A stretch of 11,423 nt of DNA from Candidatus Desantisiibacteriota bacterium. GTDB lineage: Bacteria; JACRDZ01. Of the stretch, positions 1 through 11,423 are shown piece by piece. The stretch spans positions 1 to 11,423 of the forward strand of contig JACQWU010000181.1 in assembly GCA_016209155.1 (NCBI GenBank), in the 5' to 3' direction. How positions within the stretch are numbered: the first letter of the stretch is position 1; each line of letters starts with the position of its first letter. The notes beneath the pieces were generated by a model, which was given only the letters and a program-made list of their open reading frames with translations, ran no database searches and was not told where the DNA came from. The position numbers were made by a program, and so were the translations under genes.

Positions 1-46
1 TTATTTCATTAATATCAAGTATAATCTTTATATAATAATAATTTAC

Positions 47-123
47 GGGCCCATAGCTCAGCTGGTTAGAGCTACCGGCTCATAACCGGTAGGTCCTAGG
101 TTCGAATCCTAGTGGGCCCACCA
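47..123 (+). tRNA. tRNA with CAT anticodon (tRNA-Ile2 favoured over elongator tRNA-Met)
   Basis: A complete 77-nt cloverleaf is visible. The acceptor stem GGGCCCA pairs with TGGGCCC, the discriminator is A and CCA is encoded. The anticodon stem ACCGG/CCGGT encloses the loop CTCATAA, and the T-arm CTAGG-TTCGAAT-CCTAG is perfect. The first base pair is G-C, which rules out a bacterial initiator tRNA. The anticodon CAT then leaves elongator Met or the Ile2 species whose C34 becomes lysidine. C4-G69 and C5-G68 in the acceptor stem match what is known of E. coli tRNA-Ile2 recognition by TilS, so Ile2 is favoured, but not proven. A TATAAT at 31-36 could be the -10 box; no convincing -35 is seen. 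Confidence 0.95.
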
Positions 124-207
124 TTTCTGTTCCCCTGAAAGCAAAAAAGTGCGAAATTTATTATATTTAGAATAAATTGATCCGCTTTAAAAAAGGAGGG
201 ACATATC

Positions 208-1398
208 ATGCTGTCCCGTAAGAAGGATATATTATTAATATTTCTACTGTTATTATTTATGCAGGAAAATTTACTGGCTTTCAAGCGCATAAAAGAAAAC
301 AATAACATTCCGGAAATATCCGCCGAGGATATTGATGGTAAAAAAATTCAAACTTCTGCCTATAAAGGGCAAAAAACATTAGCTATTGTATTCTGGAAAT
401 ATCCGAGCTTAAGAGGTGAAAAAGCTTTGGTTCTTTTTCAGAAATTTTATGATTCCTACCATGGAAATTTTCCGTTTGAAATTATTTCAATATATGTACC
501 TCAGGAGGATGATAAACTTACTGAAGAAGAAATGACGGAAGTAAGGAAAATTATCAGCAGTAATAAAATAACTTTTCCTGTAATAATTGATAAAGGAATG
601 GAAATTTTTAATAAATTTGGTATTATTAGTTTCCCGAGTTTTGGGCTTGTAGATAAAGAAGGTGTTTTGATTTATGAACTTCCCGGACTGCCGGAATTTT
701 TTGGTGAAAAAGATCTGACAAAAAACGTTAAAAAAGCTCTGGGGATAAAAGAAGAAGAAAAAGTTATAGCAAAAGCAGCATATATTGCGAAAAACAATTC
801 AAGTTTTTACTTAAATCTTGCAAAACAGGTATATAAAAAAGGGAATACTGATCAGGCCATCGAACACACACAAACAGCTGTACTGCGTGATCCGGATTAT
901 GCGGAAGGATACAGTTATCTTGGATTTCTTTATAATCAAAAAAAAGAATATAATAAAAGCAAAGACGCCTATATTAAATCTCTGAGTCTTGATCCTGCAA
1001 GAAGCGATACCTTGCTTACTTATGGATTTTTCTGTCTTGAAGCTGGATTTAATGAGGATGCCTACCTGCAATTTAAGAATATTATTCAAATTACTCCTGA
1101 AAAAGCGGCTGAAGGGCATTTTGGTCTCGGTACGATATATATGAAGGATGGAGTATTTGATTCAGCCCGTCAGCATCAGGAAAAAGCCATTGAATTATAT
1201 AAAACATGGAAAGAATTTTCTCAAGAAGAGGAAATCCATTTTGCAATGTCATACTATAATCTTGGAGAAACCGAGTTAAAGCTGGGATTAAAAAAAGATG
1301 CCATAGAAAATTTCAAGCAGGCTTTTATAATATACAAAGGAATAGCAACAACTATGTTAAAAGGTAAGGAATCAATGCTTGATTATAGTGTAAAATAA
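208..1398 (+). CDS. Exported thioredoxin-fold (TlpA/AhpC-like) protein with C-terminal TPR repeats, redox cysteines absent
   Basis: The start is fixed by AAAGGAGGG ending 7 nt before the ATG. Residues 1-24 (Lys/Arg, then a Leu/Ile-rich core ending near LLA) look like a signal peptide, so the protein should act outside the cytoplasm. Residues 33-175 read as a TlpA/peroxiredoxin-type thioredoxin fold: PEISAEDIDGKK opening, AIVFW strand, and IISFPSFGLVD carrying the cis-proline. Where the family has WCxxC, this protein reads FWKYPSLRG (62-70): aligning on FW puts Ser67 and Gly70 at the two cysteine positions. The only cysteine is Cys276 in the TPR region. Residues about 198-380 form four to five TPR units (for example around 200-233, 234-267, 268-301 and 345-378). 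It is therefore likely a binding or scaffold protein, not a disulfide reductase. It is convergent with the OppD-like gene, 7 bp away, with no obvious terminator between them. Confidence 0.88.
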   Translation: MLSRKKDILLIFLLLLFMQENLLAFKRIKENNNIPEISAEDIDGKKIQTSAYKGQKTLAIVFWKYPSLRGEKALVLFQKFYDSYHGNFPFEIISIYVPQEDDKLTEEEMTEVRKIISSNKITFPVIIDKGMEIFNKFGIISFPSFGLVDKEGVLIYELPGLPEFFGEKDLTKNVKKALGIKEEEKVIAKAAYIAKNNSSFYLNLAKQVYKKGNTDQAIEHTQTAVLRDPDYAEGYSYLGFLYNQKKEYNKSKDAYIKSLSLDPARSDTLLTYGFFCLEAGFNEDAYLQFKNIIQITPEKAAEGHFGLGTIYMKDGVFDSARQHQEKAIELYKTWKEFSQEEEIHFAMSYYNLGETELKLGLKKDAIENFKQAFIIYKGIATTMLKGKESMLDYSVK

Positions 1399-1405
1399 TG
1401 AAAAA

Positions 1406-2383
1406 TCAATACCTCCAGCAATTGACTTCGCTGTCTTTTTTCACGGATTTTATTGACGGCGGGCGCATATAACATATCTTTTCCACATAATGGCACCGCG
1501 GCGCAAAACTGCAGCCCGGCGGAAGAGAATACAAATCCGGAACAGTCCCTTCTATACCGTCAAGACGCGGCATTATACTTCTGTCCATATCTTTTTTCGG
1601 TATTGATGCGAGAAGCCCCTGCGTATATGGATGCAGAGGTTCTTTAAATATGGATCTTACAGGTCCTGATTCCACAATTTTTCCGGCATACATTACAATT
1701 ACACGATCAACTGTTTCTGCAATTATGCCAAAGTCATGAGTAATCAATAAAAGTGAGGTATTAAATTCTTCTTTTTTCTTACGTAATAGATCCAGTATCT
1801 GAGCCTGAATAGTTACATCAAGAGCAGTTGTGGGTTCGTCCGCAATTAAAAGCAGCGGATTACATGATAACGCCATTGCAATCATTATTCTCTGGCACAT
1901 GCCTCCGCTTAAATGGAAAGGATATTCTTTAAGTTTCTCAGAAGGAGAAGGAATCCCAACCATTTCCATAAGATGCACAGCATCCTCCATGGCTTCCTTT
2001 TTTTTCTTTTTATTATGAAGCCTGATTGCTTCAGTAAGCTGGTGTCCGATACTAAAAAGCGGATTTAGCGACGCAACAGGTTCCTGAAAGATCATCCCTA
2101 TGTCTTTGCCCCTGATTTTGCGCAATTTACTTTTGGGAAGTTTTTGAAGGTCGGTTTCATTGAAAATTATTTCACCGTCCATTATTTTACCTGGAGGCAG
2201 TACCAGATTTAATATTGAAAGCGCTACCGTGCTTTTGCCGCATCCGGATTCTCCGACAAGTCCTACACTTTCTCCCCGCCGTATGGTAAAACTTATATTA
2301 TCAATAGCTTTTATTACACCTTCGTGTGTATTAAAATATGTTTTTAAATTTTTAACATCCAATAAAATTTTATCATTCTCCAT
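1406..2383 (-). CDS. OppD/DppD-type peptide ABC transporter ATPase, orphan
   Basis: ATP-hydrolysing subunit of the oligopeptide/dipeptide/nickel transporter family, expected to dock on two permeases at the inner membrane. From the ATG at 2383 it is 325 residues, normal for OppD/DppD. Visible motifs: Walker A GESGCGKST (44-52), Q-loop FQEPVASLNPL (about 99-109), signature LSGGMCQR (158-165; Cys where Arg is usual), Walker B LLIADEP (178-184), switch His216. The family C-terminal region has PYTQGLLASIP and a Cys pattern (Cys291, 297, 304) as in GCSFAPRC, typical of OppD/DppD/OppF. An upstream in-frame TTG at 2410 lies inside the promoter spacer and is rejected as the start. No permease, partner ATPase or binding protein lies in the window, so its substrate is unknown and it must work with subunits encoded elsewhere. 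Confidence 0.9.
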   Translation of the reverse strand: MENDKILLDVKNLKTYFNTHEGVIKAIDNISFTIRRGESVGLVGESGCGKSTVALSILNLVLPPGKIMDGEIIFNETDLQKLPKSKLRKIRGKDIGMIFQEPVASLNPLFSIGHQLTEAIRLHNKKKKKEAMEDAVHLMEMVGIPSPSEKLKEYPFHLSGGMCQRIMIAMALSCNPLLLIADEPTTALDVTIQAQILDLLRKKKEEFNTSLLLITHDFGIIAETVDRVIVMYAGKIVESGPVRSIFKEPLHPYTQGLLASIPKKDMDRSIMPRLDGIEGTVPDLYSLPPGCSFAPRCHYVEKICYMRPPSIKSVKKDSEVNCWRY

Positions 2384-2395
2384 AGTCGAGGGTTG

Positions 2396-2424
2396 ATTAT
2401 AGAAAAACAACAGGATTATGTCAA
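2396..2424 (-). promoter_or_regulatory. Perfect sigma-70-type promoter for the OppD-like gene
   Basis: On the minus strand TTGACA (2424-2419) and TATAAT (2401-2396) are separated by exactly 17 bp, matching consensus at every position. The -35 box overlaps the TGA stop of the upstream 488-residue gene. Transcription should begin around 2388-2391, only about 4-8 nt before the ATG at 2383, and no Shine-Dalgarno is present there. The mRNA would be nearly leaderless. Promoter quality is seen directly; the start site is inferred. Confidence 0.8.
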
Positions 2425-3887
2425 GGGGAAGATTTTTCTAAAATAAAAACTTCATCCGGAATAAAATACATGCCGGGTTGATCTTCTTTCTTAAAGATTT
2501 CCTCAAGGTCTGATAAAATACGTTCAATATATTTTTTGCCTTCCGCACCATGACAATATTTTAATAACTGCATAAGGTCTTTTTCTGCAAACGGATATTC
2601 CTTTGTGGAAACACTTTTTTTATCGATAGGAGGTATTGGAGCAGGGAGTTGAAATCCATTAAACCATTCCTTAAAAAGAGAGGTCATTTTTTCTGATTTC
2701 GGGTTGACAGTCATAATCTTTTTTAAATTTTGGATAAATATTTTAAGCGCCTCAGGAGAATTCATCATCAACTCATTGTTATTAACAACGGATAATAATT
2801 CCTGAAAAAAATAGATCATAATAGGGGACTGCCCTGTGTATAAAAGATTTCCGGATTGAAAGTATGGATCATCCGCCCGTATTATTATCTCGGAAACATT
2901 TTCTTCGATGCTTGTCTTATTAGTATCACTTTTAGCTGTTTCACGAAAACGAGCCCGGATTTTCCCATTGATACGGCCGGAATAGTCGTATAAATCTTTC
3001 TCATCTATATTATCGCTCGATTTCGATTCAAAAACCCTGCCATTTAATTCACCTGCCAGTCCCATCAGATAATAAATACCTGTAGTAAATGATTTGGTTG
3101 TTAAAATATCAAAATCACTTCCTGTTTTGAATGAAATCTTTACTTGATTTTTAAAATCAGGAAGTCCATCAGAGGCGACATCCCAATTGTCTTTTATAAG
3201 AATCAGATATTTGAATCCGACAAAATCCTTTTTTTGAAAATACTCTGCAAAATATTTAAAAACCGGTTTCCCATCAAGGTTTTTTCGCATGGGGTCATCT
3301 CTTTTTGCGTATTTTTTTAATTCTTTGAAATTATTAACAAATTTATCCTCCTCAATTTTACCTTCAGCGCCAATTTTAAACCAGTGGACTATTTTATTGA
3401 TGTATGAATCATCTTTTCCCGTTCCCCAATCACCATCCCATAAATCAAGGGAAACTAAACTCAATGCGTGTGAAGTTGCAAGGATGATTATTTCCATATC
3501 AAATTTATTTTTAAACTCAAAATTAACATTTTTAATTTTAACTTTTTTTGGGAATTTAAGCTTTATATAATATTTTTCAATGATACTTGCATTAATAAAG
3601 CTGTCATCAGGTACTGAAAGCTCAGCTTTGTATAATGGTTTCATCCCGACAAATTCAGCCTGATTATATTTTATAAAGTAATTGATATTATTTCCCGTAT
3701 AGGGACGAATTCTTGCCGCATATATAGTTGAACTATCATTATTAAGTTTCCCTGTTTCAGATATCAGATAAATTTTATCAAAACGATCCTCATCTTTTTT
3801 CAATTTTTCAATAGCACCGGACGAACTTGCTTGAAAAATATAAATGATTGATAGAAATAAGATAAAAATCATCGAATGTGTTTTCAT
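2421..3887 (-). CDS. Exported protein of unknown function, third gene of the vWA/ABC operon
   Basis: I do not recognise this 488-residue protein. Residues 1-24 (MKTHSM, then a long Ile/Phe/Leu core ending near QASSSGA) form a signal peptide or anchor, so the rest should be periplasmic or envelope-bound. The body is Lys/Asp/Glu-rich with many beta-like segments in the first 280 residues (for example VKIKNVNFEFKNKF and KYLILIKDNWDV). The last 120 residues are mostly helical and end in MYFIPDEVFILEK. The close of the vWA protein (helix, then VWMELSYLP) is loosely similar. No CxxC, lipobox, formylglycine-enzyme-like or enzyme motif is apparent. The start is fixed by GGAGGG (3899-3894) 6 nt before the ATG, which directly abuts the TAA of the upstream transporter gene in the same reading frame. 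Translational coupling with the transporter is likely. Confidence 0.85.
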   Translation of the reverse strand: MKTHSMIFILFLSIIYIFQASSSGAIEKLKKDEDRFDKIYLISETGKLNNDSSTIYAARIRPYTGNNINYFIKYNQAEFVGMKPLYKAELSVPDDSFINASIIEKYYIKLKFPKKVKIKNVNFEFKNKFDMEIIILATSHALSLVSLDLWDGDWGTGKDDSYINKIVHWFKIGAEGKIEEDKFVNNFKELKKYAKRDDPMRKNLDGKPVFKYFAEYFQKKDFVGFKYLILIKDNWDVASDGLPDFKNQVKISFKTGSDFDILTTKSFTTGIYYLMGLAGELNGRVFESKSSDNIDEKDLYDYSGRINGKIRARFRETAKSDTNKTSIEENVSEIIIRADDPYFQSGNLLYTGQSPIMIYFFQELLSVVNNNELMMNSPEALKIFIQNLKKIMTVNPKSEKMTSLFKEWFNGFQLPAPIPPIDKKSVSTKEYPFAEKDLMQLLKYCHGAEGKKYIERILSDLEEIFKKEDQPGMYFIPDEVFILEKSSP

Positions 3888-5846
3888 TTAAAACCCTCCA
3901 CAGGATTTGGTTTCCCCGCTTGATACGCCGAGAAGCTTAAAAAGGATTATATCATTTTTACGCATCCTTACACTTGTCTGAATATTTCCAAAAATTATCA
4001 AACCGCCGATAACAGCTACAACAAACACAATACCTTTTAAAAACCACTCAGCCAATTTACGGGTATCAAGAACCCATTTATAATCAAAAATTTTTGCTCT
4101 GGGTTCATATCCTAAAGAGGATAATTTTTTTACAACAGGGATAACCTGCTGAACATTACTAACATAAACATGAGCCTTTTCTGTATATGGGAATTGTGCC
4201 ATCTTAATAATTTCGGAAGCTTGTACTGTCCAGCTAACAGCATCAGGATCATAGGGAATACTGAATACACCTTCTTTGTCTAACCGCCATTTTTCAAGGA
4301 CAAGCTGGGTTTTTAAAGGAAGATAAAAATTTCGCCCTGCTTCCGCTCTTTCTACAATACCTGCAATTGAAAGACTAATTGAAAATTCCTCAAATTCCAT
4401 TTCATCCGGATCTGTATTAAAGGTTGTTCCTCTTATTGGCCGGGCTACAGCAAAGGATAACTTTTTTCCGATAAGATTATTGCGGAATTCATCAGTAACA
4501 ATTTCTCCGTCTATTTTAAACAGACGCTTAATACTACGTTCTGAAATTATAATCTCAAGCGCACTGTCGGAAGTAAATTTCCCTCCGGCAGTAAATGCTA
4601 ATTGATCCAATTCCGGATCATTAATCTCAAGTCCATACATAGTCTCTTTTCTTATTCGATTATGCCAATCCTTAATTCTATAAATTCCCTCCCTGCGCTC
4701 AATAAAATTTATAACACCCGGAATTTTCAATATCAAAGATTTATCGGGGAATAGTTGATTAGCTGATAAATCCTTTGGAACTATATCTATTCTTGTTAAT
4801 CTGGAACCGCGGCGTATTACATCGTCTAAAAGCGTATCAGTCCCAGAACGAAGTGACTCTAAAACTGTAAGCTGAAAACTGCCCAAAAGAAGAGCTCCGA
4901 CAGTAAGAATAGTAAAAAGAATATTTCTTATAAGATCATTCATTACTAATTTAAGCTGAAGAAAACTTCCTGTTCTGGGTTTAAGCCCAAACCAGATATT
5001 TTTTTTCGATAATATTTTTACCCCGAATTGACTGACAGGTGAAAAAATTGAACTTGGTGCTTCTTCTGCTTTATCATCAACATTTTTTTCTGCCTGTCTG
5101 TGACTTTTGACAAGTTTTAGCATGCCGTTTTGTAATTCGTAAACAATTGGAGCATCAAGGAATACTTCATCATGGGAAACGACAATTATGGTTTTACCTG
5201 ATTCTGATAACTTCATCAGCATATTAAAAATATCCTTCTTACGATCTTTATCAAGACTTGCTGTCGGCTCATCTGCCAGCATAAAAACAGGATTATGAGC
5301 CAGCGATCTAAGAATGGAAAAACGCTGCTTCTCACCGCCGCTGATATTGTGAGGATAACGGCTGAGAAGATCTTTAATATTTTCATCGGCAGCTTTTGAA
5401 TTTTGTTCATTTAAAGCTCCGGATGTATACATGCTTTTTATAAGAGAATAAAAATCCTGTTTTGCTTCATCACTTTTTATGCCGTGAATACGCATGGGCA
5501 GATAAATATTTTCTTTTATGGTGAAATGTTCGAAAAGAAGGGCTTCCTGAAAAATAAATCCAATAGATTTTGCTCTAATTTCTTCCTGTATAATCCATGA
5601 TAATGAATTTTTACCGGAGTGAATATCCACATCAGCCAGACTGTAATAACCCTGATACTCTTTATCAATTAATCCCAGAATGCGAAGCAGGGTTGTTTTC
5701 CCTGAACCGCTTTCCCCCCGAATAACAATAAAATCTCCCGAGAATATAGAAAGATCAATCCCATTCAATATCAACTTATTTTCTTTTTCTTTATAGGACT
5801 TCCTTATATCTTTCAGTTGAATTACCGGTTTTATAATCGAGGTCAT
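3888..5846 (-). CDS. MacB/FtsX-type ABC transporter, fused ATPase and permease, C-terminal membrane half missing
   Basis: From the ATG at 5846 (AAAGGA 4 nt upstream) it is 652 residues. Residues 1-240 are a LolD/MacB-like ATPase: Walker A GESGSGKTT (44-52), Q-loop FQE (about 99-101), signature NISGGEKQR (167-175), Walker B FMLADEP (188-194), SHD (224-226). After a variable linker come TM1 (about 307-328), a periplasmic domain of about 270 residues, TM2 (about 601-623) and the usual cytosolic coupling stretch RKNDIILFKLLGVSSGE. MacB-type permeases then continue into TM3 and TM4; this protein stops ten residues later at SCGGF. Neither other reading frame continues with a hydrophobic sequence. 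Members of this family (MacB, LolCDE, TagTS) drive envelope mechanics or lipoprotein release. It follows the vWA gene by 23 bp and abuts the next gene. A longer GTG start at 5897 would overlap the vWA gene and lacks a site. Confidence 0.88.
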   Translation of the reverse strand: MTSIIKPVIQLKDIRKSYKEKENKLILNGIDLSIFSGDFIVIRGESGSGKTTLLRILGLIDKEYQGYYSLADVDIHSGKNSLSWIIQEEIRAKSIGFIFQEALLFEHFTIKENIYLPMRIHGIKSDEAKQDFYSLIKSMYTSGALNEQNSKAADENIKDLLSRYPHNISGGEKQRFSILRSLAHNPVFMLADEPTASLDKDRKKDIFNMLMKLSESGKTIIVVSHDEVFLDAPIVYELQNGMLKLVKSHRQAEKNVDDKAEEAPSSIFSPVSQFGVKILSKKNIWFGLKPRTGSFLQLKLVMNDLIRNILFTILTVGALLLGSFQLTVLESLRSGTDTLLDDVIRRGSRLTRIDIVPKDLSANQLFPDKSLILKIPGVINFIERREGIYRIKDWHNRIRKETMYGLEINDPELDQLAFTAGGKFTSDSALEIIISERSIKRLFKIDGEIVTDEFRNNLIGKKLSFAVARPIRGTTFNTDPDEMEFEEFSISLSIAGIVERAEAGRNFYLPLKTQLVLEKWRLDKEGVFSIPYDPDAVSWTVQASEIIKMAQFPYTEKAHVYVSNVQQVIPVVKKLSSLGYEPRAKIFDYKWVLDTRKLAEWFLKGIVFVVAVIGGLIIFGNIQTSVRMRKNDIILFKLLGVSSGETKSCGGF

Positions 5847-5869
5847 AAATTCCTTTATAAACTTCACAA

Positions 5870-7741
5870 TTATGGCAAATAAGATAATTCCATCCACACT
5901 TGTTTATTTTCACGGAAATCACGTGCAGCAGCTTCAAGAAAATTAGTAATTTTTCTTTCCGCTCTTTTTATCTGCCTGGCAATTTCCACACGCTCAAAAC
6001 GGGGTAGATTTAAAAGAGATTCCATGGAATATGTTAATAAGTTAGTATTAAAATGGATCCCCATTCTCTTTTCAATAAGTTCCTGAATCTCTATATCAGT
6101 AGGAATATCTTCACCAAGAATAGATTTAAGATTTTCTGTTACTGCATCTCTAAGTTCTTCATTGGTAAGGTCCTCATAATTTTTGCTTAATGCTTCAATA
6201 TGATTGAATAAGCGCACAAGATCTTCAAGAAAATCCTTTTCCACAAGAATCTTTTCATGATAAAGTTCCTCCTTTTCAAACATCCATCCTTCGCGAATTA
6301 AAAATCCGCCATTCTCAATACTATACTTTATGGCAGCCCCTTGCAGTCGGGATAGAACTTCAGTATTGAGTGTCTTAAGCGGTATAATAGAATATCCATG
6401 CTCTGAAGGAACCATTTCTTTAATTATGTTAGTAACTTCTGTTTCTGTATCATATACAGTTTTTCTCATAAGCTCCTTAATTTTTTTTGAGAAATTCTTT
6501 CTTCCTTGAGAATCAGAATCTTCCTCCGAAGGATAAAACTCGCCGCCGGTGCCGTTTGCAAGTTCAGATAAAATTTTAACCAAAGACCCTCCATCTTTTT
6601 TCTCTGCCTGCAATGAAAATACAGTTATATCTTTATTAATAAGCAATGAAACAACTTCTTCGGATGTTTGTTCTTTTTCAACTGACTTGGTAAGACCGAT
6701 TGTTTCGGTTTTAGCATCGTCGTTGAGAACCGCAATAATAATCTTCTTTTCTCCGCCTGAAGAATCCGCGCTTACTTCCCACTTAAACTCTTTTGTGGCA
6801 AGAATTAGCGCATCAAGTATAGGTTCAGCCGCATCACCTCCGCCAATCATTTTTTTAGGTGTAGATTCTTCACGAAGAATTTCAATCCCCTTCTCCATAC
6901 TGACAGGGTTCACTATTTTTATTTGTTCTTTATCCCACTTGTCCCTGAAAAACACAAAACCTATTTTTGTATTCTTTGGAGAAAGTTCTATTGTTTTCAA
7001 TAATTCTTCGATTGTCTCTGCCATTTTTGTCCCATATTTTGACATGGAACCCGTTGCATCAAAAACAACGCAAAAAGTAACTTTATTAAGAACATTTTCC
7101 AACTGGTTCGATGTAGTTTGTATTCTTATTTTGGTTTCAGGAACATACGTTGGGATATAAACCTTATAAATTTTTTTATAGATTTCATTCCCGCTTTCCT
7201 TATTTGTTTCTAAAGCTTTTTTATCTACAACCGGAAATGCGAGTAATTTTTTTGGCAATGCTTTAGAAATTCCGAGGTCTTCCATAAATATAGGAGGATA
7301 TGTTTTCATATCTCCCGTTCTTGCATATTCCTTTATGCTGTTCGCATCCCATACCTTAATTTCAGTTCGTTCTCCGGAAGCTGAGGGAGACGGCTGAAAG
7401 TGTATTCCCTCCCGGGTGTTCCACTCCATAACAAGAGTTTTTTTAACATATGCATGTCTGTTAGGATGCTCCAGATTTGCAATTTTGTAATAATCTCCTG
7501 AATCCTCAACAACAAAATAAGGCATCATTATTTCTACTTTATAAGCTTCTGATCCTCCTTTTTCTTTTGTAGTGGCAACAACATTATCAGAGCAGGCAAT
7601 TACTTTTTTTATGACTTTTGTGCCGGGAACATACATAAATCCAGAAGCGCTTTTGGATACTATACAAAAAATAATTATTGCAATAAAGAAAATGAAAAAA
7701 TATTTTCCGTTAAATTGGTTTTCACTAAATTTTTTATGCAT
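5870..7741 (-). CDS. Membrane-anchored periplasmic SH3-like/vWA protein with PpkA-like C-terminus, no kinase domain
   Basis: A 623-residue protein whose start is fixed by GAAGGAG 6 nt before the ATG. Residues 14-28 are a signal anchor or signal peptide, placing the rest in the periplasm. Residues about 68-108 resemble a bacterial SH3-like module (YFVVEDSGDYYKI ... AYVKKTLVMEW). Residues about 220-430 are a vWA domain: MIDAS DATGSMS (228-234; DxTxS), GFVFFRDKWD (261-270), GGGDAAEPILDAL (300-312) and IIIAVLNDD (334-342). These features match the subgroup found in PpkA and alpha-kinase-type vWA proteins. The C-terminal 190 residues are helical and end in VWMELSYLP, resembling the C-terminal end of PpkA, by recollection of the family. 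The PpkA kinase domain is absent. It heads the operon with a fused ABC transporter, so a metal-dependent envelope sensor or scaffold role is inferred. Confidence 0.87.
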   Translation of the reverse strand: MHKKFSENQFNGKYFFIFFIAIIIFCIVSKSASGFMYVPGTKVIKKVIACSDNVVATTKEKGGSEAYKVEIMMPYFVVEDSGDYYKIANLEHPNRHAYVKKTLVMEWNTREGIHFQPSPSASGERTEIKVWDANSIKEYARTGDMKTYPPIFMEDLGISKALPKKLLAFPVVDKKALETNKESGNEIYKKIYKVYIPTYVPETKIRIQTTSNQLENVLNKVTFCVVFDATGSMSKYGTKMAETIEELLKTIELSPKNTKIGFVFFRDKWDKEQIKIVNPVSMEKGIEILREESTPKKMIGGGDAAEPILDALILATKEFKWEVSADSSGGEKKIIIAVLNDDAKTETIGLTKSVEKEQTSEEVVSLLINKDITVFSLQAEKKDGGSLVKILSELANGTGGEFYPSEEDSDSQGRKNFSKKIKELMRKTVYDTETEVTNIIKEMVPSEHGYSIIPLKTLNTEVLSRLQGAAIKYSIENGGFLIREGWMFEKEELYHEKILVEKDFLEDLVRLFNHIEALSKNYEDLTNEELRDAVTENLKSILGEDIPTDIEIQELIEKRMGIHFNTNLLTYSMESLLNLPRFERVEIARQIKRAERKITNFLEAAARDFRENKQVWMELSYLP

Positions 7742-7805
7742 TTTAAACTCCTTCTACATTTGAATTTTCTGATTCTGTACCCCTCTTATTAATCTTGCAA
7801 AAATA

Positions 7806-7834
7806 ATTTTATAGTAAAATTTAGTCTTCGTCAA
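7806..7834 (-). promoter_or_regulatory. Promoter of the vWA/ABC operon
   Basis: Minus-strand TTGACG (7834-7829) and TAAAAT (7811-7806) are separated by 17 bp, one mismatch from consensus in each box. Transcription should start near 7799, giving a leader of about 58 nt that ends with the strong Shine-Dalgarno GAAGGAG of the vWA gene. The -35 box overlaps the first in-frame ATG of the divergent HEAT-repeat gene at 7834, which argues against that ATG as a start codon. Confidence 0.65.
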
Positions 7835-7872
7835 TGAATTATTTATATTTACTGAATGGGCTGGAGCATAAC

Positions 7873-8403
7873 ATGCCCCTGCTAAATTACTTGCGTATTA
7901 ATTATTATTATACTAAAATGCCTCAAATGAAAAAAATATTGCTGATTATTTTTAATATATTCATATTATTTTTTTTACAGTCCGGAATATTCTCTTTTGA
8001 TGAACAGGCTGTTAATAGCGAAATTGAAATTCTTAAAATAAAAACAGAAGATCAATTTGGTGAAAAAGTTGTCGTTCATTTTAAAAAATGGGATGCAAAA
8101 AAAAATCTTGTAAATATAGGGAAGGACGCTGTTTTGCCGCTAATAAATACACTTGACAATGAGAATGCCAGATATTATGTAATCAGAGCGCTAGGTGAAA
8201 TAGGTGATGAAAGAGCCGTTGAATCGTTATCCGTAATTTTATTAGATACAACATGCGGCTCACGGAGATTTGCCGCTATAGCTCTTGGAAAAATTAAAAG
8301 CAAAAAAGCCATACCTGCCCTTAAAAAAGCTCTGAATGATAACGATGATGTTATCAAAAAAGATGCGCGTGTTGCGCTCGATCAAATAAATGCAGAAAGA
8401 TAG
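7873..8403 (+). CDS. Small exported HEAT-repeat protein
   Basis: The secreted body contains about three PBS-lyase-type HEAT repeats: AVLPLINTLDNENARYYVIRAL, GEIGDERAVESLSVIL and GKIKSKKAIPALKKALNDND, the last closing with ARVALDQI. These repeats normally form a protein-binding solenoid; no catalytic motif is present. A hydrophobic stretch following MKK (ILLIIFNIFILFFLQ) is a signal peptide or anchor. Three in-frame ATGs are possible. The ATG at 7873 has GGAG 6 nt upstream and is used here. The ATG at 7927 gives a textbook signal peptide but has no visible ribosome site, and the ATG at 7834 falls in the divergent promoter. The gene is divergent from the vWA operon across a shared control region, so it may belong functionally with it; this is inference only. 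Confidence 0.8.
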   Translation: MPLLNYLRINYYYTKMPQMKKILLIIFNIFILFFLQSGIFSFDEQAVNSEIEILKIKTEDQFGEKVVVHFKKWDAKKNLVNIGKDAVLPLINTLDNENARYYVIRALGEIGDERAVESLSVILLDTTCGSRRFAAIALGKIKSKKAIPALKKALNDNDDVIKKDARVALDQINAER

Positions 8404-8405
8404 AG

Positions 8406-8429
8406 TTAATTAAATTAAAATTTAATTAA
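8406..8429. repeat. Pure A/T perfect inverted repeat
   Basis: TTAATTAAAT and ATTTAATTAA are 10-bp perfect complements around a TAAA loop, three bases after the HEAT gene stop. With no G-C pair and no T tract it is a poor intrinsic terminator. It could be a weak terminator, an operator or a chance product of AT-rich DNA. Confidence 0.35.
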
Positions 8430-8469
8430 TATCAAAACTTTGCCGCTAATATGTAGCAGGGGGCAGCTA

Positions 8470-9708
8470 ATGAAAAATACAATAGATGAAAATATAAAAA
8501 ATATAATAGAAAAAAAATTAGTAGTTCTTTTTGTGGATAAGAGCCAGATGTTAATTAATGAAATTTTTCTTATGCTTCATAATACACAGGATGAATGGGA
8601 AACTAAATTTGCCTATTCCGGGAATGAAGCACTTGAAATTATAAGAAAAACTAAAATTGATATTGTTATTTCTGATATTGATCTTCCTGAAATGGATGGA
8701 ATTCATCTGCTTGCAGAAATAAAAAGGTCACACCCGAAAACCATTTGTGTTCTTATGTCAGAAAATAATTACGATAAACAAAATAAAGCAATAGATTACT
8801 TTTTAAGAAAACCTCTCAGTTTAGATAAATTAAAAAAAATAATTCTGAATCCTGTTGATTTTTTAGACAAAAACAAAATCCGCTTGTTTATTTTAAAAAT
8901 GGATAAAATGCCGACAATCCCAAGTTTATATTTAAAACTTCAGGATATAATGAAATCTGAGGATTTTTCATTTAATGAAATTGCAAAAATCATTGAAAAT
9001 GATGTTACAATGACAGCAAAGATACTGCAATATGTTAATTCGGCATATTTTGGATTAAGATATCGGATATATGATATTCTTCATGCTGTAACTTATCTTG
9101 GACTGGAAACATTAAAATCAATTATACTTACTCTAAATGTATTCTGTGAATTTACAGATGAAGAAATGGAAAAATTTTCCATTCAAAATTTATATAATCA
9201 CAGCCTGAGAGTAAGTTGCTTGGTAAGTAGTATTATTCAAATTACAGCAACAGAAGACCGTTCAGCAGAGGAATCAATTGTGGCCGGAATGCTGCATGAT
9301 ATCGGAAAATTAATTTTCATAAAAAATAAACCTGAAATTTATACGGAAATTTTTCAAATTAATAAAGATAAAGGAACACCTTTGCATACTTTAGAAAATC
9401 AATATTTTGGTGTAAATCATGCTGAAGTCGGCAGTTTTCTTACTGAAATATGGGGATTTTCACCAAATTTAATTGATGCAATCAATAAACATCACAACCC
9501 GCATAATGCGTTAAAACCTCCCCTTAATATTAATTCTGCTGTTTACATTGCAAATATTTTAGATCATGATTCTGATAGCAGGGAAATAACTGATGAATAT
9601 GAAAAAATACAAAATTATTTAGATAAAATAAATCAGATGCAAAATTTATCTGTTTGGTGTTCATTGATCGATAACCTTAAAAAAAATTCAGGGATTAGTT
9701 TAAATTAA
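8470..9708 (+). CDS. Response-regulator receiver/HDOD domain signalling protein
   Basis: The start is fixed by CAGGGGG 6 nt before the ATG, giving 412 residues; an in-frame TTG at 8440 has no comparable site. Residues 16-130 are a CheY-like receiver: VLFVDKSQ (Asp23, but Lys where the second acidic residue usually is), VISDIDLPEMDG with phospho-acceptor Asp69, Ser97 at the Thr/Ser switch and Lys114 in RKP. Residues about 145-345 are an HDOD domain: MPTIPSLYLKL opening, NDVTMTAKILQYVNSAYFG, LHAVTYLGLETLKSI, an intact HD pair in MLHDIGKL (His276, Asp277) and a later KHHNP. HDOD proteins commonly act in signal relay and regulation, often without enzyme activity. No DNA-binding or GGDEF domain is attached. 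It lies 66 bp after the HEAT gene, possibly cotranscribed. Confidence 0.9.
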   Translation: MKNTIDENIKNIIEKKLVVLFVDKSQMLINEIFLMLHNTQDEWETKFAYSGNEALEIIRKTKIDIVISDIDLPEMDGIHLLAEIKRSHPKTICVLMSENNYDKQNKAIDYFLRKPLSLDKLKKIILNPVDFLDKNKIRLFILKMDKMPTIPSLYLKLQDIMKSEDFSFNEIAKIIENDVTMTAKILQYVNSAYFGLRYRIYDILHAVTYLGLETLKSIILTLNVFCEFTDEEMEKFSIQNLYNHSLRVSCLVSSIIQITATEDRSAEESIVAGMLHDIGKLIFIKNKPEIYTEIFQINKDKGTPLHTLENQYFGVNHAEVGSFLTEIWGFSPNLIDAINKHHNPHNALKPPLNINSAVYIANILDHDSDSREITDEYEKIQNYLDKINQMQNLSVWCSLIDNLKKNSGISLN

Positions 9709-9750
9709 ACCCATAGAGGTATAATTTATCTAAAATTGTATGGATGCAAA

Positions 9751-10619
9751 TCATATTTTATCTTTATTTTCAAGAAGAGTTAGTATTTTCTTTCTAAAAA
9801 CCTCAGGATTTGATTGCTGCCAGCTTCGCGATTTTGCTTCATTCCCTATCTTTTTACGCAGCTTCTGATCCGACATAACTAAATTTATATAATATTTTAG
9901 AGCATCTGCATCACCATATTTAACAATAAATCCGGATACTCCATGTTCCATGTAATCAGATGCGCCGAATGGCTCAGTAACGATAACAACTTTCCCCATA
10001 GCCATAGCTGTCGCCCATGTTATCATTCCGGTAATCCGCATAGGTTCCGGTTTAAGCGTAATCACAACACATGAACCGGATATGGCAAATCCTTTACAGC
10101 TCTCAATAATGTATCCCAATCGCGTGCCTGATATCCGCCTGTAAAGATGTATTCACTATCAACAGGCTCGCGTAGGTTTGTAAGATCAAAAGGAGTATGA
10201 ACAAGATGGAATTTATTTTCAGGAATCCTGTACTGACGCGAATAACGCTTACTTTCTTCTGATGTGAAACAGCACAAAGCCTTACTCGCTAAAGCCGCAG
10301 TTCTATTAAGTAATCCGCTCTTTACCTTAGGCCATTCGATATCCGTGAGTATAATATAACGCTTTAAATGTAAAAATTTTGCCAATATAGGTACCCATAA
10401 TCCATACCTGCCGACTGCAATACTGTCATTTTTAGCTGACAGAGAAAGAAGATAGCATGCAAACCTGAACTCAAACCAGCGTCGAAACAAGCTCTGTAAT
10501 CGAACAGGAAAACGTTCAACGCGTGAATTTACATAACCGCGCTCATCAATAAGAATAACATCTTCACGCCATGGATCATCCGAATAAAAAGTCACAGAAC
10601 GGCTAACAAAAAAACTCAT
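9751..10619 (-). pseudogene. Broken GT4-type glycosyltransferase (frameshift plus internal deletion)
   Basis: The 5' part (10619-10062) encodes 185 residues with VGRYGLWVPILAKF, IILTDIEWPK, SEESKRYSRQY and FTGGYQARDWDTLLRAVKDL, ending at VHVL and TGA. The 3' part, in another frame and ending at 9751, encodes the rest of the family's nucleotide-sugar domain: VVITLKPEPMRITG, ATAMAMGKVVIVTEPFGASDYMEHGVSGFIV. In intact GT4 relatives the segment between these blocks is about 35-40 residues longer, so bases appear to have been lost around 10060-10080 as well as the frame. The two ORFs overlap in that spot. The ATG at 10619 has GGAG 9 nt upstream; a TATAAT at 10681-10686 on the minus strand lacks a good -35. 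A spot count of the 5' part gives about 42% G+C against 32% in the HDOD gene. Its acceptor is unknown. Confidence 0.75.
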
Positions 10620-10752
10620 ATTTCACAACTCCGGTTTATAATATAAAATTCTCCTTGAAAAGCCGCATTTACTAAAAAATATTATAACATATTTTTAATC
10701 AAAATAATAATTCATTATAGGTCTTATAGAAATTTCCCATCTTGACTTTTTG

Positions 10753-10777
10753 GCAGGGTTCGATTTATCGAACCTGC
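10753..10777. repeat. REP-like hairpin
   Basis: GCAGG-G-TTCGA pairs with TCGAA-CCTGC across a TTTA loop, with one bulged G. Ten base pairs in otherwise AT-rich spacer suggest a REP-like dispersed repeat or a remnant. No T tract follows on the plus strand, so it is not a classic terminator in that direction. Confidence 0.5.
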
Positions 10778-10825
10778 TTGCGGGATTGTCCAAATATCAA
10801 ATTGCGAATAAACAAAATAATCAAA

Positions 10826-10854
10826 TTGAACTATTTATATTATTTCTATATAAT
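10826..10854 (+). promoter_or_regulatory. Promoter upstream of moaA
   Basis: TTGAAC (10826-10831) and TATAAT (10849-10854) are separated by exactly 17 bp: one mismatch in the -35 box and a perfect -10. Transcription should start near 10861, giving moaA an unusually long leader of about 177 nt that contains the palindrome at 10922-11016. Confidence 0.7.
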
Positions 10855-10921
10855 AGTTATAAAGAGTAATTGAAACAGTATGTGGTGCGGGTGTGTAGAT
10901 TAGATATGACTATTTATGCGG

Positions 10922-11016
10922 ATAGGTTGAAGGCCGAAGGTTTTTAGGTAGAACAATATAAAAAGCGCAAGCGTTTTAAATACTGATATCCTTCAGTCTT
11001 CAGCCTGAACACCTAT
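10922..11016. repeat. 95-nt imperfect palindrome in the moaA leader (MITE-like element or structured leader RNA)
   Basis: The outer ends are ATAGGT and ACCTAT. Just inside and overlapping them, GGTTGAAGGCCGAAGG (10925-10940) pairs with CCTTCAGTCTTCAGCC (10990-11005) over 16 positions with one C/A mismatch and two G-T pairs. Each arm carries two copies of a YYGAAG-like heptad. The centre, CGCAAGCG flanked by A and T runs, is at the exact middle. CTATTTAT occurs at both edges (10910-10917 and 11013-11020), as a target duplication would, although the right copy overlaps the inverted repeat. It could also be a regulatory RNA fold for moaA. Confidence 0.65.
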
Positions 11017-11037
11017 TTATAATTGGATAAAAGGACT

Positions 11038-11423
11038 ATGTTGAATATTAAGGATAATTTCGGGCGGAGTATTGATTATCTTCGTATTTCTATTACTGAC
11101 CGCTGTAATCTTAGATGCGACTATTGTATGCCTGAAAACGGGATTAAACAGCTTCCTTCAGCGGAAATTCTTACTTATGATGAGATTATAAGAATTGTTA
11201 CTTATGCGGCAGGGCAGGGGATAAATAGAATAAGGATTACAGGAGGGGAACCTTTTGTACGTAAAGATTTTTTAACATTACTGGAAAGATTAAAAAAAAT
11301 CCCGGGGATAAAGGATTTAAGCCTTACTACCAACGGGATATTATTAGAAGAATATGCTGAATCTATTTTTAAGATTGGGATTAAACGGATTAATATAAGT
11401 ATTGATTCTTTAAAACCGGAGCG
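11038..11423 (+). CDS. moaA: GTP 3',8-cyclase MoaA, 5' part (runs off the window)
   Basis: Radical SAM enzyme that converts GTP to 3',8-cyclo-7,8-dihydro-GTP, the first step of molybdenum cofactor synthesis, in the cytosol. The first 128 residues are present. Visible: the family opening NFGRSIDYLRISITDRCN, the SAM cluster motif Cys23-x3-Cys27-x2-Cys30 followed by MP, TGGEPFVR (68-75), LTTNG (96-100) and SIDSLKPE (121-128). Intact MoaA is about 320-340 residues, so roughly 60% is missing only because the window ends. AAAAGGA lies 2 nt before the ATG, which is tight; the next codon, TTG, would be 5 nt away and could serve as the start. The long leader with a strong fold suggests control at RNA level, but this is unproven. 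Confidence 0.95.
   Translation, partial: MLNIKDNFGRSIDYLRISITDRCNLRCDYCMPENGIKQLPSAEILTYDEIIRIVTYAAGQGINRIRITGGEPFVRKDFLTLLERLKKIPGIKDLSLTTNGILLEEYAESIFKIGIKRINISIDSLKPE

Follow-up and report, generated by a model that had tools for sequence, protein, structure and literature searches.

Kinase-less vWA and ABC transporter genes in a three-gene unit

The 11,423-nt window analyzed here (Candidatus Desantisiibacteriota bacterium, contig JACQWU010000181.1, positions 1 to 11,423) carries on its minus strand three adjacent genes. They code for an anchored or exported protein with a von Willebrand factor A (vWA) domain, an ATP-binding cassette (ABC) protein in which a MacB/LolD-type ATPase is fused to a truncated FtsX-type permease, and an exported protein of 488 residues, here called U488. 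These genes form a real orphan three-gene unit. It is most likely a variant, divergent and reduced, of a kind that is known but has been little studied. To that kind belong the PpkA/TagST arm of type VI secretion system (T6SS) control, the vWA-ATPase-permease genes that occur without a kinase in srfABC loci, and Bacteroidales clusters of TssR-like and ABC genes. The favored explanation, to which we give about even odds, is that the operon encodes a stand-alone envelope-sensing module, in divergent and reduced form, with the vWA protein as receptor and the Type VII (MacB/Lol/FtsX) ABC protein as mechanotransmitter.

The vWA protein of the window gave a weak Pfam match to the TssR N-terminal barrel, and Bacteroidales genomes were therefore searched for this barrel. 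The search recovered T6SS loci and two clusters (in genomes G503 and G561) with no T6SS gene in the stretches examined. The G503 cluster consists, in order, of a vWA TssR-like, a vWA-less TssR-like and a second vWA TssR-like gene, followed by genes for an ABC ATPase, an FtsX-like permease, SrfB, a 329-aa protein and SrfC. In G561, a vWA TssR-like and two vWA-less TssR-like genes precede the ABC ATPase and FtsX permease genes, and further on there are genes for FHA proteins, a PP2C phosphatase and two Ser/Thr kinases. This second cluster (L184 384-7010 and 10844-18678) resembles the T6SS threonine-phosphorylation pathway.

The presence of SrfB in a Bacteroidales cluster led us to the srfABC plasmids. 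On plasmid pENTE01 of Enterobacter sp. 638 (WP_011906511 and neighbours), srfA-srfB-srfC precedes genes for a 311-aa protein, a vWA protein of 651 aa, an ABC ATPase and an FtsX permease, and an FGE gene comes next. The same run of srfB, srfC, an intervening gene, vWA, ATPase and permease genes, and then FGE, was found in Gluconobacter (albidus) and Cereibacter (azotoformans); the vWA, ATPase and permease genes also occur together on a Hyphomicrobiales plasmid. The vWA protein is encoded on more than 110 Klebsiella plasmids, and a few of these copies are annotated as a Ser/Thr kinase. In host-associated Deltaproteobacteria, nearly all of them without T6SS machinery, srfABC was reported in 2013 to accompany tagQ and ppkA and mostly also tagR, tagS and tagT (PMC3608642). 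Kinase-less PpkA-like vWA genes lying directly before TagT-like ATPase and TagS-like permease genes, away from T6SS, exist and are conserved. The type of module that an earlier, sequence-only reading of the window had inferred was thus already partly noted in 2013.

When the SrfABC-linked vWA family was compared with the TssR family by hhalign, the two aligned end to end (local probability 97.9, P 5E-13, 536 columns), and the alignment spanned the barrel, the vWA domain and the C-terminal domain (L194 18567-20522 against the L173-L176 and L184 genes). The kinase-less PpkA-like vWA proteins of srfABC loci and TssR of the Bacteroidota T6SSiii are homologous over this whole length, which suggests one receptor family. 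PpkA goes unmentioned in the TssR paper, which relates the D2 domain of TssR to vWA (PMC10781749).

Two further observations concern these loci. Plasmid pTs485 of Candidatus Thiodictyon syntrophicum (L196 11881-14657) carries vWA and ATPase genes with no adjacent permease or srf genes, apparently a remnant. On plasmid pSP2_1 of Runella sp. SP2 (L190 17995-26683), srfB, srfC and a subtilase gene lie directly downstream of a BREX defense locus, and the same three genes are also found together in Bacteroidales G503.

Organization of the three genes in the window

The three genes are long, co-directional open reading frames (ORFs) in a row (Table 1). Only 23 nt separate the vWA stop codon from the ABC start, and the ABC stop codon TAA (3890-3888) abuts the ATG of U488 in the same frame. 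ATG 5846 is the preferred ABC start, having AAAGGA 5 nt upstream; the mechanical 669-aa ORF begins at GTG 5897. The GC3 value is identical (0.276) in all three genes. The tight spacing and abutting signals described in the sequence-only reading are borne out. A GGAGG lies 7 nt upstream of U488, and the gaps and signals are compatible with one transcript. As to the single promoter of that reading, a plausible sigma70-type site precedes the vWA gene, but promoter-like sites of this kind occur in the region at chance number (25 found versus 21.9 expected), so that the site at 7834-7806 is weak evidence when taken alone. A perfect TTGACA-17-TATAAT sequence is present at window positions 2396-2424 (minus strand), where it overlaps the end of the U488 gene and precedes a lone gene for an OppD/DppD-type ATPase (1406-2410).

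Table 1. Features of the three-gene unit (window coordinates)
Feature	Position	Strand	Basis or remark
Putative sigma70-type promoter, TTGACG-17-TAAAAT	7806..7834	-	10/12 matches; just upstream of vWA gene
Gene 1, 623-aa vWA protein (anchored or exported) with PpkA-periplasmic/TssR-like architecture	5870..7741	-	ORF and weak Pfam matches
N-terminal hydrophobic segment, residues 15-33, signal anchor or signal peptide	7643..7699	-	Hydropathy scan
SH3/TssR-barrel-like stretch, about residues 46-115, includes YVKKTLVMEW	7397..7606	-	Weak PF17643 match, 46-90
vWA domain, about residues 219-403	6533..7087	-	Pfam match and alignment
MIDAS motif DATGSM, residues 228-233	7043..7060	-	D.TGSM invariant in vWA alignment
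GGGDA, residues 300-304	6830..6844	-	Generic vWA motif
C-terminal region, residues 406-623, ends VWMELSYLP	5873..6526	-	Mostly helical in low-confidence model
Gene 2, 652-aa fusion of a MacB/LolD-type ATPase with a truncated FtsX-type permease	3888..5846	-	From ATG 5846
Nucleotide-binding domain	5157..5822	-	PF00005, E 1.4e-23; intact Walker A, signature, Walker B, H-loop
Permease TM1	4878..4934	-	Predicted; residues 322-340 of 669-aa ORF
Permease periplasmic domain, about 278 residues	4044..4877	-	Between TM1 and TM2
Permease TM2	3987..4043	-	Predicted; residues 619-637 of 669-aa ORF
Coupling-helix segment	3891..3986	-	FtsX domain stops here; TM3 and TM4 missing
U488 ribosome-binding site GGAGG	3895..3899	-	7 nt before ATG, within last codons of gene 2
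Gene 3, U488, exported 488-aa protein	2421..3887	-	ORF; hydrophobic segment, residues 6-24

The first gene had been described as coding for an anchored SH3-like/vWA protein, and the hydrophobic anchor, the barrel-like stretch and the MIDAS (metal-ion-dependent adhesion site) motif are all present. Its Pfam matches are weak (VWA_4, E 7e-4; VWA, 1e-3; TssR N-terminal barrel, 0.012). The best score for the PF17643 barrel, 18.6 bits, is below the cut-off of 25.7; within its own genome, the vWA gene gave the best match to the TssR barrel (E 0.004). In hhalign, the barrel-like stretch aligned collinearly with the barrel of the SrfABC-linked vWA proteins, a match that by itself was not significant. 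TssR_M, TssR_VWA and TssR_C had no match in the protein at E up to 1, and no kinase match was obtained for it. Both motifs named in the sequence-only reading, MIDAS and GGGDA, are there, but GGGDA was rejected as a PpkA signature, as GGGD follows the MIDAS without exception in unrelated vWA proteins of many phyla. AlphaFold2 models made without an alignment had mean pLDDT values of 32 and 34, too poor for a fold search; that of the C-terminal region was about 33, at which the secondary structure is merely indicative.

The fusion and the large periplasmic domain reported earlier for the second gene were confirmed, but the truncation of the permease had been overlooked. The ATPase motifs (Walker A GESGSGKT, ISGGE, VFMLADEP and VSHD) are intact. 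The nucleotide-binding domain (NBD) finds its best matches in the LolD/MacB/bacteriocin-export subfamilies, and the periplasmic domain had no domain match in profile searches. Transmembrane (TM) segments TM1 and TM2 only are predicted, the last half of the membrane part being absent: the FtsX profile PF02687 matched at positions 3-42 of 120 only, and the coupling-helix segment is the last part encoded before the frame stops, at KLLGVSSGETKSCGGF. A frameshift hiding TM3 and TM4 was excluded, given that no hydrophobic continuation exists in any frame. The permeases examined for comparison have four predicted TM segments (G503 and G561) or a full FtsX domain (G561 and Enterobacter 638).

The layout of a type VII permease is TM1, periplasmic domain, TM2, coupling helix, TM3 and TM4, and in MacB the coupling helix pushes TM2, the TM1/TM2 bundle zips up and the periplasmic domain moves (PMC5985334). 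The parts that carry out mechanotransmission in MacB, namely the TM1/TM2 stalk and the TM2-TM3 coupling helix, are kept by the truncated permease. One could instead envisage a decaying or recently rearranged operon, which is the main alternative: an ordinary TagST/MacB-like transporter would have lost its last two TM helices when recombination brought in U488, leaving the ABC protein non-functional and the vWA protein acting alone or not at all. The abrupt end of the FtsX domain is as expected from such an event, as are the last ABC residues, SCGGF, which are encoded by the U488 ribosome-binding site, the abutment of the two ORFs in one frame, and the comparable remnant on the Thiodictyon plasmid, where vWA and ATPase genes remain without a permease. 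However, none of the three long ORFs is interrupted, the ATPase retains its motifs, GC3 does not differ among the genes and the translation signals are strong; we consider decay unlikely, though it deserves serious attention.

The third product was correctly described as an exported protein of 488 residues without a recognized domain; it has an N-terminal hydrophobic segment, searches against Pfam, NCBIfam, PHROG, PADLOC and PDB gave nothing above noise, and no homologue was found in 60 genomes. We considered whether U488 is a vWA-less TssR-like companion of the sort found in G561 and G503, in which case the window would be their direct equivalent. U488 has the same place in the operon logic and a similar size (488 versus 461, 473 and 492 aa); the C-termini resemble each other by eye, and a weak C-terminal phmmer match to the 461-aa G561 protein was obtained (E 0.017). 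Its hhalign scores, on the other hand, lie inside the shuffle and random-protein controls, and U488 has no TssR barrel match, which makes this assignment improbable.

Relationship of the vWA protein to the SrfABC-linked and TssR families

The placement of the window vWA gene directly before a LolD/MacB-type ATPase and FtsX-type permease is the gene order common to srfABC loci and Bacteroidales G503 and G561, and none of 45 generic vWA loci had an adjacent ABC ATPase gene on the same strand. The order of anchor, barrel, vWA domain and C-terminal region of about 200 aa is that of the family, and the length of 623 aa compares with 634-733 aa. Against the SrfABC-linked profile, the window protein gave a collinear hhalign alignment of 533 columns (P 4e-4) that was driven by the vWA domain. 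When its flanks were swapped for shuffled or real foreign sequence, the full-length profile score fell in every trial from 23.9/25.7 to at most 9.8/10.8 (0/100, 0/80 and 0/60). The comparison of global hhalign scores with shuffled flanks counts only as suggestive, because generic vWA proteins score higher than the window protein.

The following results weigh against the reading of the operon as a sensing module of this kind. Besides the higher global scores of generic vWA proteins, the flank scores fell within those of shuffles when the vWA domain was masked. The C-terminus alone gave E 0.93 with the TssR_C-type profile and hhalign local P values of 0.04-0.2 with TssR/PpkA-like profiles, position-consistent and not significant in either case, and one further comparison yielded no match. 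The permease of the window is no closer to TagS-like permeases than ordinary FtsX permeases are, and because TM3 and TM4 are missing, the ABC transporter may not work. U488 had no significant match to TssR-like companions and is not detectably TssR-like; it is also unrelated to FGE/TagR, matching neither PF03781 (FGE/SUMF1) nor the Enterobacter FGE protein. Finally, the exact trio was found once, and in no other genome searched.

For the C-terminal 190 or so residues of the vWA protein, which the sequence-only reading wished to see compared with PpkA, similarity was not significant by sequence in comparisons with kinase-less PpkA-like relatives and TssR. We conclude that the window vWA protein is like the srfABC/TssR family in architecture and context, and that its membership by sequence is unproven. 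An ordinary MacB/Lol-type export or lipoprotein-handling system lying beside an unrelated, generic vWA gene, with U488 as substrate or partner, would agree with the best NBD matches, with a vWA sequence that by itself lies at least as near to generic vWA proteins as to TssR/PpkA-like ones, and with the lack of any known relative of the trio. Such a system appears rather unlikely given that vWA-ABC adjacency is rare among generic vWA genes (0/45) and regular in PpkA-like/TssR-like loci, that no MacA-like adaptor is encoded in the operon, and that the permease is without TM3 and TM4.

Search for relatives of the trio and for T6SS genes

Orthologues of the vWA protein were sought in up to 386 genomes, in GTDB pattern scans and on plasmids, and those of the permease part in 386 genomes; the matches were only generic vWA and generic FtsX proteins, respectively. 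BLAST-level searches gave no orthologue for any of the three proteins. The phylum is represented in the comparison set by three other genomes. The sequence-only reading had named a trio conserved together in no other genome as grounds for refutation; the exact trio indeed recurs in no other genome searched, which counts against the trio but not against the pairing of vWA and ABC genes, which does recur. In the window's own genome, which is 79% complete, neither TssC (VipB/TssC match) nor SrfB (PF07520) was found, and the result for TssC is in line with a stand-alone module. No kinase-vWA protein (PpkA) was detected in the T6SS loci of seven genomes, of one betaproteobacterial family or of about a dozen plasmids.

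Several candidates were discarded. Second-looking matches (Spirochaetota vWA proteins and a histidine kinase next to a vWA gene) were generic or due to chance, and a PF17643 match in genome G127 was a chance match in housekeeping sequence. A reading of the operon as a defense system was rejected, since the PADLOC matches were ATPase-domain cross-matches only. In a same-phylum genome (G001, L002 667-3186), a protein of 839 aa combines TPR-like repeats with a DVTGSM/GGGD vWA domain and has a CsgG-like end; its family occurs in Spirochaetota as well. Elsewhere in the window, a glycosyltransferase-like gene (9751-10619, minus strand) is divided between overlapping ORFs that lie in different frames (10619-10062 and 10119-9751), resembling a frameshift or pseudogene.

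A model for the three-gene unit

If the operon is an envelope-sensing module, the three products would be expected to interact physically, and the signal could run as follows. The intact NBDs would bind and hydrolyze ATP, shifting the coupling helix together with the TM1/TM2 stalk; a change of shape in the large periplasmic domain would follow, and the anchored vWA protein would be loaded or released. The metal site of the vWA domain might bind a ligand, either U488 or an envelope component exposed by damage. Because no kinase domain is attached, the output would be a periplasmic change of state rather than phosphorylation, or it may pass through an unlinked partner. Force transmission, as the sequence-only reading had it, would have to rely on a truncated permease that still functions with two TM segments. 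The proposal of a stand-alone sensing module is strengthened in so far as kinase-less, T6SS-independent modules of this type exist and TssC was not found in the genome, but it is held back by the unproven membership of the window vWA protein. That the kinase was removed, as the sequence-only reading had it, is an evolutionary direction without support, and kinase-less forms are widespread.

A broader and more doubtful possibility is that PpkA-type and TssR-type receptors constitute one family that, paired with Type VII ABC motors, serves as an envelope sensor of general use, independent of T6SS; in this phylum the motor would then be pared down to the NBD, the TM1/TM2 stalk and the coupling helix, and U488, a new exported partner, would replace the TagR/TssR-like companions. 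If this is true, the PpkA/TagQRST arm, thought to be a T6SS accessory, would be a much older and wider combination of a kinase-less receptor and an ATP-driven mechanical transmitter, whose coupling differs among bacteria: T6SS, srfABC, separate kinases and FHA proteins, or no evident partner. It would account for the unexplained tagQRST/ppkA neighbourhood reported in 2013 next to srfABC in the absence of T6SS, link TssR of Bacteroidota with the PpkA sensor, and offer simple kinase-less systems for testing what vWA receptors sense and what TagTS do. From a Type VII permease that functions with two TM segments, one could also learn what the mechanotransmission apparatus can do without.

Comparison with known systems

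In the srfABC-locus module, a vWA protein of similar size and the same domain order is encoded directly before a LolD/MacB-type ATPase and an FtsX permease, with no kinase and no need for T6SS, as in the window. The ATPase and permease of that module are products of separate genes, the latter with a full FtsX domain (checked in Enterobacter), whereas those of the window are fused and truncated. Its companions are srfB, srfC and FGE, in contrast to the orphan U488.

TssR, a lipoprotein of the T6SS membrane complex (PMC10781749), and the TssR-like proteins share the layout of an N-terminal barrel, a vWA domain and a C-terminal domain, and the TssR-like proteins of G503 and G561 adjoin the same kind of ATPase and permease. 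In the window protein, the PF17643 match falls below the cut-off, and PF20780, PF20781 and PF20782 are unmatched.

The PpkA-TagQRST system of the Pseudomonas aeruginosa H1-T6SS resembles the window operon in combining a periplasmic vWA sensor with a MacB/Lol-like ABC transporter (TagT/TagS), but the window operon lacks a kinase domain, TagQ, TagR and Fha/PppA, and its genome lacks a detected TssC. In Pseudomonas, PpkA with TagQRST responds to outer-membrane damage (PMC11881912). MacB has four TM helices, whereas the window ABC protein stops before TM3 and has no MacA partner; like MacB, it has an N-terminal NBD fused to TM1, a large periplasmic domain, TM2 and the coupling helix.

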